Virus record (IMG/VR): IMGVR_UViG_3300045107_000843
Span: 1 to 33,247 of that record
Reading direction: 5' to 3' (one strand)
DNA length: 33,247 nt
Source of the DNA: a virus
Shown: positions 27,188 through 33,014 of the stretch, piece by piece
How positions within the stretch are numbered: the first letter of the stretch is position 1
Layout of the letters: each line of letters opens with the position of its first letter
Notes under the pieces: model-generated
What the model saw: the letters and a program-made list of their open reading frames with translations, nothing else
Databases searched by the model: none
Told to the model about the DNA's origin: nothing
Translations under genes and position numbers: made by a program

Positions 27188-28582
27188 TTACACCCTCTGA
27201 AAAATCGAGTTCTTCCGGTTCAAGTGCATTTCATAGGCACCCGCACTGGCGTCGGCGTCATCGTCGTGCGCCGCTTCGGGGAAGCCTTCAAGGCAGGCGA
27301 AGTAGGCATCGTTCCAAAGCCCGCGCACGACCTTCACGTTCCCGGCCTTTGCCTGCGAGCTAAAAGGCCCGAAGCGGGTGACCTTGTCTCCGGTCTCGCG
27401 CTCGTAGCCGACGGAGAAGCCGGCGAGCTGCTTGACCATGTAGTTGGCTTGCGCCTTGCCGGCCTGGCCAGGGTCTTGCGGAAGGCCGACGCGGCAGGTG
27501 CGCCCGTCAGCTTTGGCGGTGTTCTTGATCGCTGTTTCCACGTCGCCAGGCCCGGATTGCATGCGCTCGACGTGCGCGATCACGATGATCTTGGTTTCGC
27601 GGCTGTAGCCCATCTTGAGGCCCACAGTCCAGTCGGGATCGTTGTCTTCGTTCTTCTCGGTGGCGGCCAGGTCCCAATACCGCACCCACTTCAGGTCGGC
27701 GGGCACCTCGTCCGGCTCGATCACTTCGACCCAGGCGCGCTTGAAGTACATGCCGCTGGCCGGGCGAATTTTCCAGTTGCCACCGAGCAGGCGCTTCTGT
27801 TCGACCTCCGGCAACGCAAGCAGGTTGGCCTTGTAGCCCGGATCCGCTTTCATCAGCGCCGGGTTGTCCGTGAGCTTGCCGGGGATGAACGTTACCGACT
27901 TCGGCTGAGGCTGCTCATCATGGTCAGGCGGCAGTTCCTCGTTGCCGTATTTCTCGACAAGCTCTTCCCGCGAGTCGCCCCAGATGATGGCGTCGCCGCG
28001 GCGGATGAACCAGCGCAGCACGCCGGCGCGCTCGGGGATCGGGAAGCCAGTGTCCTGGTCGATCCACCAGGCGATGAACTCGGCTACCCAGCTGTCCGCG
28101 TCCGGGTTGCAGGTGGCGCGCACATACGGGCGGACCCCGCACATCGTGCGGTTCCGCGACAGCATGTAGAAGAACTGGTACTTCGTGAAGTGCGTCAGCT
28201 CATCGAAGCCGATGAGCGGGACCGCGCTGCCCTGCCAATCGAGCACGGTGTGCTCGTGCTGCAGGTGCTTGAAGCTGACCGTCGCGCCGCTGGGGAAAAG
28301 GAACTGCGAGTCCCCGACCTTCGGCTGCGCGCCGAGGAGCGGATACAGCCGGCTCGCCTCATCCCAGAGGCCGCCCTCGTTGAAGATCTGTGGCGAGGTG
28401 CGGCGGAAGATGACGGCGCCGAATTCGCCGTTGCCGACGTGCCGCAGCGGCTCGGCCAGCAGGCCGAAGGTCTTGCCGCATCCCGCGGCGCCGCCGGCAA
28501 TGACGATGTCAGCCGGCGATGAAAGCCAATTCTCCTGGAAGCCCGGCTGCGGTCTAATTTCCCTGGTTGGGGTCTCGGCCAT
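27188..28582 (-). CDS. terL: Terminase large subunit
   Basis: The 464-aa packaging motor has an ATPase domain with Walker A GGAAGCGKT (residues 30-38), Walker B VPLIGFDE (121-128, D127/E128) and the coupling motif RATCNP (155-160). The C-terminal RNase H-fold nuclease domain has candidate metal ligands D304 (RYWDLAATEK), D370 (LPQDPG) and the acidic HDDDADASAGAY near residue 440. The start overlaps the small subunit gene by 29 bases. It cuts and pumps DNA into proheads together with the portal. Confidence 0.95.
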   Translation of the reverse strand: MAETPTREIRPQPGFQENWLSSPADIVIAGGAAGCGKTFGLLAEPLRHVGNGEFGAVIFRRTSPQIFNEGGLWDEASRLYPLLGAQPKVGDSQFLFPSGATVSFKHLQHEHTVLDWQGSAVPLIGFDELTHFTKYQFFYMLSRNRTMCGVRPYVRATCNPDADSWVAEFIAWWIDQDTGFPIPERAGVLRWFIRRGDAIIWGDSREELVEKYGNEELPPDHDEQPQPKSVTFIPGKLTDNPALMKADPGYKANLLALPEVEQKRLLGGNWKIRPASGMYFKRAWVEVIEPDEVPADLKWVRYWDLAATEKNEDNDPDWTVGLKMGYSRETKIIVIAHVERMQSGPGDVETAIKNTAKADGRTCRVGLPQDPGQAGKAQANYMVKQLAGFSVGYERETGDKVTRFGPFSSQAKAGNVKVVRGLWNDAYFACLEGFPEAAHDDDADASAGAYEMHLNRKNSIFQRV

Positions 28583-29261
28583 TGCTGGGCAGGTAGATCA
28601 TGACCGGTGGCGGCGCTGCCGGGAGCGGCTTACCGTCGGCACCGGTGTGCTCGTGCTTGTGCTTCTCGGTGTTCATGCCGAGGTGCTTGGCCACCATCTC
28701 CCAGGCCTTGTCCTGGGAGTTCATCTTGACCTCGATGCCGTCTTTCGTGACCTTCACGCCTGCGTACAGGGCGCGGGCGCCGGGCGACAGGTAGCGCGTG
28801 TCCTTGAAGAAGGGCGTTCCCACGCCTTCGCCGTGGCACTCCGGGCACTTGGGGTGCGGGTCGCGCGTGCCATCGTAGCCAAGCTCGGCCGTGATCGGCT
28901 CGTCGGGGTTCTCGCGCTGGCGCGCCGCGAGTTCGCCGGCGGTGAGTTGGTAGGCGAAGCCCTTGCCCCAGCAACAGCGGCAGCAGGTGCGCCGGAACTC
29001 CACCAGCTCGTTCGGATCGGCCGTGGCCATGGCGAGCCACTGGCGCAGCACGGTGTCGGCGTTGACCAGCGTGCGCGCAGACCGCGCGTCCATTGCCGCC
29101 TTGATCGCGTTGCAGATGACCTGGTCATCGAGCATGCGCGTGGCCTGCCTGCGCGCCGCGCTCTCGCTGTAGCCGGCGCGGATAGCCGCCTGGGTGCCAT
29201 TCAGGTCCACCAGGAATTCCTCGACAAAGCGCTTCTGGCGAGGATTAAGGGATGCGGACAT
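28554..29261 (-). CDS. terS: Terminase small subunit
   Basis: The 235-aa protein begins with the Terminase_2/XtmA motif LNPRQKRFVEEFLVDLNGTQ and AAIRAGYSESAARRQATRML, a DNA-binding helix-turn-helix. A middle Cys cluster (C93, C94, C96, C97 and C139, C142 in HPKCPECHGEG) suggests a zinc ribbon inserted after the HTH. GGAGG lies six bases upstream of the ATG. It recognises the packaging site for the large subunit, and follows the non-coding RNA-like region. Confidence 0.9.
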   Translation of the reverse strand: MSASLNPRQKRFVEEFLVDLNGTQAAIRAGYSESAARRQATRMLDDQVICNAIKAAMDARSARTLVNADTVLRQWLAMATADPNELVEFRRTCCRCCWGKGFAYQLTAGELAARQRENPDEPITAELGYDGTRDPHPKCPECHGEGVGTPFFKDTRYLSPGARALYAGVKVTKDGIEVKMNSQDKAWEMVAKHLGMNTEKHKHEHTGADGKPLPAAPPPVMIYLPSNGRDPNQGN

Positions 29262-29308
29262 GAAAGGCCTCCGGCGAGGGCGGCGCGCGCGGAGCGGCTG
29301 AAGAAATG

Positions 29309-29330
29309 GCCCAGCGCGTGAGCGCCGGGC
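29309..29330. other. Hairpin upstream of terS
   Basis: GCCC-A-GCGC (29309-29317) pairs with GCGC-C-GGGC (29322-29330) around a GTGA loop, with one A/C mismatch. It lies about 50 bases upstream of the small terminase start. It might be a translation or packaging-site element; no U-tract is present. Confidence 0.4.
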
Positions 29331-29366
29331 AATCCACCAAAGGAGGAGGGTGGAGGAGACAAACTG

Positions 29367-29920
29367 GAGTGGTGATGCCCACTCAGTAGCCGGCGCGGCA
29401 GAACCGCGTGGCTACCGGCTGGACACCGCACAGGCAACGCGTCCGACACCCTTTCGGAAAGGGACTAGGGGGTGCGACTTACGCCGTTAGCGGGGCAACT
29501 ACCCCTGCAAGGTACGAGGGCTGGCTACTCGCTGCGTCGCGGGCCCGTTGCGCCCCGGGAACCTCGCGACATCCGCTTTCACCAACAAGGAAGAAGCCGT
29601 TATCGTTGACGCTACCGTGCGTGGGGGCCTAGGGGATTAACCCGGGGCCTCGCGAGCCACCTTCACCGCGCGTGTCTCTGTCCGCCGCCGCTCACCCCTG
29701 ACAAGGCTTGCATTGGCACGGCACTGTCAGATGCCGCCAGCTTCTTGCTTGTTGGTGCCGTTTACGTTTCCGGCGCCTCAGCCCCTTTTGGGGAGGCCGC
29801 CCTTGCGCCCTCGCGGGCCATAAACCTGAACCCGGTTGCCCATCCGGGGTTCCGCACCGGGCATCCCCAGGGGAAACGGCTTAAGCACATTTGCCTCAGT
29901 TGGCGTAGTGGTTCCGTGCC
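29367..29920 (-). ncRNA. Candidate large structured non-coding RNA (ornate, tRNA-adjacent)
   Basis: The stretch between the tRNA and terminase (29262-29931) has no convincing gene on either strand but is densely structured. On the minus strand an 18-nt long-range helix joins 29757-29740 to 29597-29580 with 17 of 18 matches. GGCACGG (29920-29914) matches CCGTGCC (29721-29715), and GCCGTTT (29880-29874) matches AAACGGC (29763-29757). Local hairpins include GAACCCCGG/CCGGGTTC (29852-29828), GCCC-GCGA-GGGC with a GNRA loop (29818-29807), a bulged stem at 29797-29775, GTCGCG/CGCGAC (29570-29536), CCCTTT/AAAGGG (29463-29449), GTAGCC-CGCGG/CCGCG-GGCTAC (29415-29386) and GAGTGG/CCACTC (29384-29367). 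Location next to a phage tRNA recalls GOLLD and ROOL RNAs, but no sequence match to either is claimed. Ends are approximate. Confidence 0.6.
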
Positions 29921-29931
29921 TTGCTGCTGTG

Positions 29932-30007
29932 TGGTTGCGGGAGAACGATTCGAACGTCCGACAGCAGGGTTATGAGCCCCGCGCTCTACCGACTGAGCTA
30001 TCCCGCC
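29932..30007 (-). tRNA. tRNA-Met(CAU), hybrid initiator/elongator features
   Basis: A complete 76-nt cloverleaf including encoded CCA: acceptor GGCGGGA, D-arm GCTC-AGTCGGTA-GAGC, anticodon arm CGGGG-CTCATAA-CCCTG, variable loop CTGTC, T-arm GGACG-TTCGAAT-CGTTC, 3' TCCCGCAACCA. Anticodon CAU allows Met (initiator or elongator) or, if lysidine-modified, Ile2. The 1:72 position is a G-A mismatch, and three consecutive G-C pairs (29-31:39-41) close the anticodon loop; both are initiator-type features. The 11:24 pair is C:G, which is elongator-type. It lies on the late transcript after the promoter and terminator. Confidence 0.93.
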
Positions 30008-30111
30008 TTGATCTGATCTACATGGCGCGCCTACAAGGTTGACCATCGAGAGACTAGGCCTCGACGATACCTGCTAAGTTCGACGTGTCAAGCACTAGCG
30101 CAAATCGAAAA

Positions 30112-30144
30112 CAAAAAGCCCGCGCGGTTTGCACCGGGCGGGCT
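30112..30144 (-). terminator. Terminator (tR'-like) downstream of the late promoter
   Basis: A 7-bp stem, AGCCCGC (30117-30123) with GCGGGCT (30138-30144), is followed on minus by TTTTTG. Its end lies about 60 nt after the predicted transcription start, so it would make a short leader RNA unless polymerase is terminator-resistant. Confidence 0.78.
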
Positions 30145-30178
30145 CTGGTCGGATTTTTAGCTATGCCAACTAAGACGC

Positions 30179-30207
30179 TATATACGCCACGGTTTGGCGG
30201 GTGTCAA
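30179..30207 (-). promoter_or_regulatory. Strong sigma70 promoter (pR'-like late promoter)
   Basis: On the minus strand, -35 TTGACA (30207-30202) and -10 TATATA (30184-30179) are separated by exactly 17 bp, near consensus. The spacer contains an inverted repeat, CGCCA-N5-TGGCG, a possible protein-binding element. The promoter lies just after the stop of the Q-like gene and would start transcription near 30172. Confidence 0.78.
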
Positions 30208-30213
30208 CAACCC

Positions 30214-30229
30214 GGCCTTAAATAAGGCC
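30214..30229. other. Palindrome at the end of the Q-like gene
   Basis: GGCCTTA and TAAGGCC form a perfect 7-bp inverted repeat around two bases, spanning the stop codon of the regulator gene, directly upstream of the promoter -35. It may be an operator or hairpin. Confidence 0.5.
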
Positions 30230-30883
30230 GCAGGCGCGCAATGTGTCCTCGGCCGCCTTCATCGCATCTTCCTCGATGCCTGGCGCGGCGCGCCGCCCCT
30301 TCTTCGATCGGCTGCCGCCAAAATAGGTAGCCACCTTCTGCGCGTGCGCGGCCACGGTGTGGCGGTCCACGCCGTGCTTCGCCGCGAGGTCGCTGAACGA
30401 CGGCCGTTGCGACTTCGGGGCGAACTGCATCAGCACGTATTCCCGGCGAAGCAGGCTGTTGGACGTGCACCCTGCCAGTGCGGTGCGGCGGACATGGTCG
30501 GCAAGGTAGCTGATCGCGTTCTGCCATTCCTGGCTGAACTTGTGGCCGGAGCAGCAGGAGGCCTTGCAGTCGCAGGGCACGGTCGGTGGCGCTGAGCGCG
30601 CGATCAGAAGCGCCACCTTGAGCGGGCCCAGCTGCTGAATCTCCTGGCGCACCATCCCCGCCTGCGCGGCGCCGTCGAGCCCGGCCAGGCCGGAGCCTTC
30701 CCCGCGCGTGGTGTCAGCCATCCGGTTCATCACCGGCCGGTCGTACGCGCCTTCGGAGAAGTGGAAGGCGAACGTAAGCGCTGCATGCGCGCTCGCGAAC
30801 AGCGGATCCTCTTTCATAGTCTGACTACCCCTGGTTGTTTCCCGTGAAACTTGAGGTTCTTCTTCAAGTACGGCTTCGGTCAT
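30218..30883 (-). CDS. Zinc/HTH protein, candidate late-gene antiterminator (Q-like)
   Basis: The 221-aa protein has a Cys/His cluster CDCKASCCSGH (C104, C106, C110, C111, H114) followed by a helix with EWQNAISYLADHV, another Cys139, and a helix-turn-helix-like end (about 161-190: FSDLAAKHGVDRHTVAAHAQ). These features fit a DNA- or RNA-polymerase-associated regulator. It lies immediately upstream of a strong promoter and terminator that precede all late genes. This is the layout of lambda Q, pR' and tR', which is why I call it Q-like; sequence similarity to known Q families was not tested. The ATG overlaps the upstream gene's stop region. Confidence 0.6.
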   Translation of the reverse strand: MTEAVLEEEPQVSRETTRGSQTMKEDPLFASAHAALTFAFHFSEGAYDRPVMNRMADTTRGEGSGLAGLDGAAQAGMVRQEIQQLGPLKVALLIARSAPPTVPCDCKASCCSGHKFSQEWQNAISYLADHVRRTALAGCTSNSLLRREYVLMQFAPKSQRPSFSDLAAKHGVDRHTVAAHAQKVATYFGGSRSKKGRRAAPGIEEDAMKAAEDTLRACGLI

Positions 30884-31194
30884 GATCCCTCCCTTGTTTC
30901 ACTTGGCGCGCGGATGAGCCGCACGCCGACGAAGGTGCCAACCTTCGAATCGTCGGCAAAGCTGTAAGTCAGGTGCAGCACATCCTTGGCCTGGCAGGTG
31001 ATTGGGCGCGCGAACGTGAGGGTTGTGGGGCCTTCGGTCGCCAGCGGCCTGGTGTTCCACAGATCAACGCTCTCCGCCGTCGCTCCGCAGCCCTCGCACT
31101 CCGGACCGGTTTTGCCCTCACCGTTCATCCAGCCCTTCGCGTCGATATCCGTGCTGCCGCAGAATGGGCAGGGAAGAAGGACTTCCCCGCTCAT
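30880..31194 (-). CDS. Lar-like restriction alleviation zinc-ribbon protein
   Basis: The 104-aa protein begins with the Lar_restr_allev pattern LLPCPFCGSTDI, then ECEGCGATAESVDLWNTRP (C9, C12, C33, C36 as zinc ligands). Members help phages against host type I restriction, although many phage copies are unproven. After residue 55 a C-terminal extension (TLTFARPITCQAKDVLHLTY) of unknown role follows. ATGA overlap with the upstream gene marks the start. Confidence 0.75.
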   Translation of the reverse strand: MSGEVLLPCPFCGSTDIDAKGWMNGEGKTGPECEGCGATAESVDLWNTRPLATEGPTTLTFARPITCQAKDVLHLTYSFADDSKVGTFVGVRLIRAPSETREGS

Positions 31195-31394
31195 GGGCGC
31201 CTCGTCAGTGCTTTGGTGCGCGCGCGGTGCTCGTGATCGTCGCGGCAGTCCTGGTCGCAGAACAGGCCTACGGCCAGCGGCTCCTCGCAGTTGTAGCAGG
31301 CGCCGATCGGGCGCAGCTCCGGCGCGCGTGTGCGCAGCGCGCGCTCCAGTGATTGTTCTATCTCGTCAGATGCGAGATCAGCGATGTCGGGCAT
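31191..31394 (-). CDS. Small zinc-finger protein
   Basis: The 67-aa protein has an N-terminal acidic helix and the Cys pattern CYNCEEPLAVGLFCDQDC (C33, C36, C46, C50), a treble-clef or TraR/DksA-like zinc ribbon. GGAGGGG lies just before the ATG. Such small zinc proteins are common in phage early regions; function is unknown. Confidence 0.75.
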   Translation of the reverse strand: MPDIADLASDEIEQSLERALRTRAPELRPIGACYNCEEPLAVGLFCDQDCRDDHEHRARTKALTRRP

Positions 31395-32097: not shown

Positions 32098-32571
32098 CTA
32101 TGCGGGCGCGCCCGGCTCCAGCGTGCAAAGCCACTTCGCGAAGGTGGCGTTCGACAGCGCCTCCGCGCAGCGTTTCTCCCGGATGTGGGCGATGGCCGTG
32201 CTCGGATACCAGCCGTCCCGGATCAGCGCCAGTGCGACGATCAGGCCCGAACGGTTCCAGCCGGCTTCGCAGTGCACCAGCGTGGGCCCGAGCTTCCGGC
32301 AGGCACGCACCTGGTCCGCGATCATCACCAGCCGGTCCACCGGCGGCAGCGACGGGCCGTCCATGAACGGGTAGATGGTGATGTGCTGGCCCGCGCGCGG
32401 CGCGTGGTGGGGCTTTCCATACAGGTCGAACACGAATTCAAAGCGCCGGTGCCCCTCGGCCGCGTCGTACCCTGGCCAGCCGCCCTGCCAGAGGTCGCCA
32501 TCGATCAGCGAATAGTGGCCGGTCGGGCGCAGCCAGTCGCTGCTGTTCAGAGTCGTGCCGTTGGTGATCAC
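32098..32571 (-). CDS. Dual-specificity protein phosphatase
   Basis: The protein tyrosine/dual-specificity phosphatase active site HCEAGWNRSG (HCx5R) is complete: Cys101 and Arg107 from the GTG start, with Asp in IYPFMDG as candidate general acid. The likely start is GTG at 32571, which overlaps the upstream TGA (GTGA) and has GATGGGGG before it; an ATG at 32598 would give nine more residues (166 aa total). It may remove phosphates from host or phage proteins during takeover; the target is unknown. Confidence 0.85.
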   Translation of the reverse strand: MITNGTTLNSSDWLRPTGHYSLIDGDLWQGGWPGYDAAEGHRRFEFVFDLYGKPHHAPRAGQHITIYPFMDGPSLPPVDRLVMIADQVRACRKLGPTLVHCEAGWNRSGLIVALALIRDGWYPSTAIAHIREKRCAEALSNATFAKWLCTLEPGAPA

Positions 32572-33014
32572 GCTACCCCCATCAGTTGCTTCAGCCATTG
32601 AATGCCGCGCTCATCGCGCACGGCCGCTCCGTCCACCTCGATCACGCGCCAGCCCGCCAGCAGCGACAGGGCGCGCTTCTCGATATCGGCGGCGGCGCGC
32701 GCTTTCACCCGGTGCGCTCCGCCCTGCACCTCCACGCCAATGCGCAGCGCCGGCCATGCGAAGTCCAGGCGGAAGTCCCGGCCGGTGATGTGGAAGTACT
32801 CGGTCACCGGCGCCGGCAGGCCGTGGGCGGCGATCTGCTGCTCGAAGCGCACTTCAAGCTGGCTGCGCTCGCGCGGCGGCTTGATATCGGCCTGCACCTC
32901 GGCGCGGCCGGGCGACTGCCGGCGGTCGGCAGGTTGCTCCCCGGCAATGCCGCGCACGCCGCCGGCGGCCACGCGCTCGGCCACCATTTCGCGCGTCCAC
33001 CGCACCTCGCTCAT
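32568..33014 (-). CDS. PD-(D/E)XK endonuclease-like protein (DUF559/Vsr-like)
   Basis: The 148-aa protein has the nuclease core FRLDFAWPALRIGVEVQGG (D84, E95, Q97) and later DIEKRALSLLAGWRVIEVDG, matching the DUF559/Vsr superfamily. The usual Lys of ExK is Gln here (EVQ). Such proteins may be nicking enzymes or resolvase-like. It starts by ATGA overlap with the FtsK-gamma gene. Confidence 0.82.
   Translation of the reverse strand: MSEVRWTREMVAERVAAGGVRGIAGEQPADRRQSPGRAEVQADIKPPRERSQLEVRFEQQIAAHGLPAPVTEYFHITGRDFRLDFAWPALRIGVEVQGGAHRVKARAAADIEKRALSLLAGWRVIEVDGAAVRDERGIQWLKQLMGVA

Follow-up and report, generated by a model that had tools for sequence, protein, structure and literature searches.

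A putative Q/AlpA-type antitermination switch before the late genes of a tailed phage and an uncatalogued protein family with a palindromic predicted binding site

Organization of the switch locus

We analysed a window of 33,247 nt that covers positions 1 to 33,247 of the IMG/VR virus record IMGVR_UViG_3300045107_000843. On its minus strand, a gene encoding a 221-aa protein with a CDCKASCC sequence and a helix-turn-helix is located directly upstream of a late promoter and the late operon, a position that is also kept in relatives (Table 1). The reading frame closes with a TAA stop codon at 30220–30218. The cysteines of the encoded protein form a Cys4 motif (C104-x-C106-x3-C110-C111, CxCx3CC) and all four are invariant across 53 family sequences. 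A flexible, conserved N-terminal loop lies at about residues 46–67, and the helix-turn-helix extends over about residues 163–189 with D173, R174, H175 and T176 as its recognition residues. Downstream of the terminase small subunit gene, the late genes continue on the same strand to the window start and encode the terminase large subunit, portal, head protease and neck proteins, followed by sheath, tape measure and tail fibre proteins. This arrangement reproduces what a preliminary description of the sequence had listed, namely a zinc/helix-turn-helix protein gene, then a TTGACA-17-TATATA promoter, an early terminator about 60 nt past the start and late genes that all point in the same direction.

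Table 1. Features of the switch locus, in the order of transcription
Feature	Position	Strand	Basis or remark
Q/AlpA-like antiterminator gene	30218–30883	−	221 aa; motifs, fold match to AlpA, lambda Q and 21Q
-35 element TTGACA	30202–30207	−	10 nt after stop codon
Predicted protein-binding palindrome CGCCA-AACCG-TGGCG	30185–30199	−	Matches DRHT helix expectation; in register with pause element
-10 element TATATA	30179–30184	−	Sequence
Predicted transcription start	30172	−	From spacing only, ~7 nt after -10
Predicted -10-like sigma pause element CATAGC	30160–30165	−	A 28 bp from repeat centre
Intrinsic terminator, tR'-like, AGCCCGCCCGGTGCAAACCGCGCGGGCT-TTTTGTTTT	30108–30144	−	Folding, module conservation
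First late gene, terminase small subunit	28554–29261	−	Profile matches, gene order

The 17-nt promoter spacer (30201–30185) reads CCCGCCAAACCGTGGCG and carries an inverted repeat whose distal half is CGCCA (30199–30195) and whose proximal half is TGGCG (30189–30185). The terminator consists of a strong stem (30144–30117) followed by TTTTGTTTT and is placed approximately 55–65 nt past the predicted start; the folding of leader plus terminator had a z-score of −3.5. The -10 element matches TATAAT at only four of six positions, and a generic promoter scan, which requires the final position to be T, missed the promoter for this reason. The pause element likewise differs from the usual GATAc. Taken alone, a repeat paired at 5/5 positions around N5 arose in 0.7% of shuffles of the window spacer, and the full grammar, which we defined as the promoter, the repeat and an A at +28 from the repeat centre, occurred once on both strands of the 33 kb window, at the switch.

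In the leader (30179–30145, minus strand), short complementary arms surround the -10-like element (TTAG..CTAA in the window), as they do in many relatives. The arms formed 4.1 pairs versus 3.4 ± 0.11 in mononucleotide shuffles, and we make no claim on a leader hairpin because related sequences were unweighted in this comparison.

Conservation of the module among relatives

Relatives of the 221-aa protein numbered 286, 267, 262 and 212 in IMG/VR scans that gave four overlapping sets. With tblastn, relatives without assigned function were found in Bordetella phage PHB09, Achromobacter phage CF418P1, Burkholderia phage Bcep176 and Shewanella phage QDWS. One plasmid also encodes a relative, and of 300 genomes sampled from one bacterial order, 8 contain a family member.

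We then searched downstream of the relatives' readable genes for the module promoter with the pattern TTGAn-16/18-nAnnnT. It was found in 83 of the 89 relatives with a readable gene, leaving 48 elements after removal of near-copies. In these 48 non-redundant relatives, the gene is followed by a promoter whose spacer carries an inverted repeat, then by a -10-like element and a terminator, the last being part of the module 20–50 nt further on in the located elements. The stop codon TGA often lies inside the -35 sequence TTGAC, and intervening genes in some loci place the module 0.2–1.4 kb further downstream. Six loci were not located automatically, where L001 and L068 show the module by eye and L085 is truncated. 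Among the 89 loci, no recognisable module was found in L019 and L061 and none in the most distant relative, L090; it is present in the very distant members L314 and L317. A scan of 980 kb of relatives for the grammar gave 47 occurrences at modules and 3 elsewhere.

Scored with an N5 loop and a centre 14–17 from the -35 element, the spacer repeats paired on average at 3.9 of 5 positions versus 2.2 ± 0.11 in 1000 shuffles, and at least four of five positions were paired in 67% of the repeats versus 5% of the shuffled spacers. The sequence of the repeat varies between phages and its position is constant.

Five loci (L005–L009) encode proteins with near-identical N-terminal halves and differing C-terminal halves, L005, L006 and L008 sharing one form and L007 and L009 the other, and the latter two have extra sequence before the promoter. 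The pattern, read from the sequences, looks like domain swapping by recombination.

Correspondence between recognition helix and half-site

Across the family, distances between helix-turn-helix sequences tracked distances between repeats (r = 0.40; 0.32–0.38 with other regions fixed), and for other regions of the protein the correlation was lost under the same control. Residues of the N-terminal domain were also considered as tracking the site and were rejected, their association vanishing with the helix held fixed. Residue 175 had the strongest association with the half-site of the 177 protein columns, and residue 174 was tied to the inner base. Helices with xRHT were paired with CGCCA, as in the window, those with RDT with CCGCA, RQT with CGACA, ARNT with GGGCA and HRNT with GTGCA, and these pairings hold on different protein backgrounds. 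The window's own combination of DRHT with CGCCA fits the code fully.

Half-sites predicted from the helix agreed with the observed ones at 230 of 260 positions, the maximum in 20,000 permutations being 194, where the permutations ignore relatedness. The rule was applied unchanged to 38 new members and named the best half-site correctly in all nine for which a prediction was made and the module was automatically located. Among six further new members with a prediction, two had the predicted site at 9/10 in a directed search and four keep mainly the proximal half. Three residues of the recognition helix thus appear to predict the DNA sequence that would be bound. The repeat had been put forward in the preliminary description as a possible binding element, a role for which its covariation with the recognition helix argues.

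Register of the repeat and the pause element

Counted from the repeat centre, 26 of the 32 elements had a TA dinucleotide at +27/+28, with A at +28 in 91%, while the best TA frequency was 17/32 when counted from the -35 element and 21/32 when counted from the -10 element. The TA is better fixed from the repeat centre than from either promoter element, and therefore the repeat keeps step with the transcribed -10-like element. Such a relation, as read from the aligned elements, is expected if the protein reading the repeat docks on a sigma-paused polymerase. A matching half-site with A at +28 could be placed in all 41 members with a prediction, which serves as a consistency check because the placement favours the +28 register; degenerate halves among the 41 were distal in eight and proximal in two.

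In the AlpA system, the AlpA-binding element (ABE) occupies positions −25 to −20 and the -10-like CACGAT positions −1 to +5 (PMC9371919), and the distance from the site centre to the A is therefore 22.5 bp. The same 22.5 bp separate the centre of the proximal half-site (+5.5) from the A of the pause element (+28), which suggests that the proximal protomer would be the one to enter the RNA exit channel.

Predicted fold

An AF2 model of the window protein, built with 53 family sequences, had a pLDDT of 87.9. Foldseek over 350,542 solved chains ranked AlpA first (E 3e-3, probability 1.0). With VIA-align, the model scored Z 13.5 (146 aligned, 3.2 Å) and 12.5 against the AlpA complexes, 7.3 over 141 residues against lambda Q and 4.9 over 97 residues against 21Q. 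A second family member was modelled with AF2 from another alignment of the family that it headed. AlpA was again the best match among solved structures, at Z 14.4 (146 aligned, 2.8 Å) with the first unrelated row at 5.0, and the AlpA scores of both models were well above later unrelated rows. 82Q and GafZ were not among the structure-list matches, which is uninformative about either. The conserved loop at about residues 46–67 was modelled with low confidence, lies where AlpA and 21Q form their nozzle and is likely a nozzle as well. R174, H175 and T176 probably correspond to the AlpA contact residues K138, S139 and T140 (PMC9371919). A match between a model and a known fold does not by itself prove function.

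The fold also bears on whether the 221-aa protein acts on the promoter as a conventional repressor or activator, the terminator then ending a short leader or guarding the neighbouring tRNA gene. Such regulators typically place a helix-turn-helix on a palindrome, and a dimer bound to this palindrome within the promoter could block sigma, but the repeat is in register with a transcribed element and not with the -35 or -10 element, the terminator belongs to the module in the located elements, and the whole fold matches AlpA and not a repressor. We regard this explanation as very improbable.

Relation to catalogued families

Scans of Pfam, NCBIfam and PHROG gave no family match for the 221-aa protein, and the family scans returned a few weak matches to generic helix-turn-helix and sigma region 4 models. 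When all PDB sequences were searched in profile and single-sequence mode, nothing relevant to the protein was returned, and AlpA was not listed at E 10. A literature search found no experimental work on the family, and no mention of antitermination or late genes was found in the paper on the Bcep176 infection transcriptome (PMC12584637).

The same gene position and the similar general fold would also suit a divergent member of a catalogued Q family, i.e. 21Q (PF06530), lambda Q (PF03589) or 82Q (PF06323). This is very improbable in our view, since neither these Pfam models nor the Q-like PHROG 127 were among the matches listed for the 53 members, hhalign with lambda Q gave a probability of 0.1%, and the site is a palindrome and not the direct repeat of 21Q. 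By sequence, the family does not belong to any of the three Pfam Q families, and we conclude that it is a large uncatalogued family of its own with a palindromic predicted binding site. That the protein might define another antiterminator family had been suggested beforehand, and the HMM comparison, in which no model of a known Q family matched, agrees with this.

Proposed antitermination switch

The gene order, module conservation, fold similarity, helix–site covariation and fixed register observed here are best explained by a late-gene switch of a tailed phage, which very probably acts by processive antitermination of the Q/AlpA type. The Q-like reading of the preliminary description is strengthened by the conservation of the module in dozens of unrelated phages and by a predicted fold nearest to AlpA and then to lambda Q and 21Q; the lambda-like switch that it outlined had its parts correctly named and lacked the pause element and the register of that element to the repeat. 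It is extremely improbable that promoter and terminator make up a stand-alone small-RNA gene with an unrelated neighbour: a promoter with a terminator at about 60 nt does resemble a short-RNA gene, and lambda makes such a leader RNA too, but changes in the spacer repeat go along with changes in the recognition helix encoded by the adjacent gene, and the leader has no Rfam match.

For the antitermination switch, we infer pausing, loading, nozzle formation, dimeric binding and read-through as follows. The host sigma70 polymerase would read the promoter (30207–30179), and without the phage protein a transcript of about 60 nt would end at 30117–30108. Once the polymerase has left the promoter, capture of CATAGC by sigma region 2 would make it pause. 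The 221-aa protein would bind CGCCA-N5-TGGCG, probably with one protomer per half-site and with R174 and H175 as the reading residues. At the proximal half-site, the N-terminal loop and helix of the protein would be inserted into the RNA exit channel to form a nozzle; terminator hairpins could then not form and the polymerase would read into the terminase-to-tail operon, while the distal protomer may help loading. Two protomers per palindrome are suggested by its symmetry, whereas AlpA loads as a single molecule.

We further consider it likely that residues 173–175 specify the palindromic half-site in a readable code, that the protein loads as a dimer and that the register is set by the paused complex and not by the promoter. 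The dimer-on-palindrome arrangement would be distinct from that of AlpA, with one site, and from that of 21Q, with a direct repeat. If these residues specify the half-site, late promoters would be predictable from the protein.

Comparison with known antiterminators

AlpA of Pseudomonas aeruginosa (PMC7969949, PMC9371919; PDB 7xya, 7xyb) gave the best structural match, which covers most of the chain, and shares with the 221-aa protein a C-terminal helix-turn-helix, a site between the -35 and -10 elements, a -10-like element near the start, an intrinsic terminator downstream and the 22.5-bp distance from site centre to A. The two differ in that a single AlpA molecule reads one 6-bp site in place of a palindrome of two half-sites, that the Cys4 motif belongs to the 221-aa protein, that sequence similarity is not detectable and that the target here would be the entire late operon of a phage. 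Lambda Q (PF03589; PDB 7ubn) resembles the present system in its location before the late genes, a site in the spacer, a sigma pause, a terminator just downstream, a zinc motif and the structural match noted above, but has no sequence similarity to the family, whose site is palindromic. 21Q (PF06530; PMC6606751, PDB 6jny) is a Q of the nozzle type whose promoter contains two sites and whose structural match is weak, but its sites are direct repeats (TGAGCA) rather than an inverted repeat, and its Pfam model did not match. The antiterminator GafZ, from the gene transfer agent of Caulobacter (PMC11150451), also has an almost perfect palindrome between -10 and -35 and differs in acting together with GafY, IHF and Nus factors. 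The GafZ authors reported no structural similarity to AlpA or Q (PMC11150451), and the likeness of GafZ to the present family, drawn from the published description, is confined to the palindromic site.

Among published antiterminators, we found loading at a promoter site described for the three Q families, AlpA and GafZ. The authors of the AlpA study predicted that more such antiterminators would emerge by structure (PMC9371919), and the present family, which occurs in hundreds of viral contigs and some proteobacterial prophages and is unnamed in Pfam, NCBIfam and PHROGs, would be an instance. With its many natural helix–site pairs, the family allows tests of how a Q protein selects a promoter, and of whether it is the initiation complex or the paused complex in which the site is read. 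The code would also provide a rule by which late promoters could be found in many phages without annotation.

Other features near the switch

Two genes upstream of the antiterminator-like gene, a DksA-like zinc-finger protein is encoded at 31191–31394 (minus strand; phrog_54, E 1.6e-8), and a dual-specificity/tyrosine phosphatase-like gene is located in the early region at 32098–32598 (minus strand). In lambda, too, a phosphatase gene (NinI) is found shortly before Q. Past the terminator and ahead of the terminase genes, a tRNA-Met gene (29932–30007, minus strand) is preceded by its own promoter-like TTGACA-16-TATCGT at 30091–30064 (minus strand), and tRNA genes near the switch were also seen in several relatives (L002, L028 and L029).

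In the late leader, just upstream of the terminase small subunit gene, positions 29301–29361 (minus strand) match the Rfam model RF02278, Betaproteobacteria toxic small RNA, with 52.4 bits versus a threshold of 50; the match was not found in 20 related loci. This RNA is toxic in E. coli when cloned and its function is unknown (PMC4603805). The stretch of about 650 bp between the tRNA and the terminase small subunit genes (29280–29930) is without a convincing gene and could hold a packaging site.
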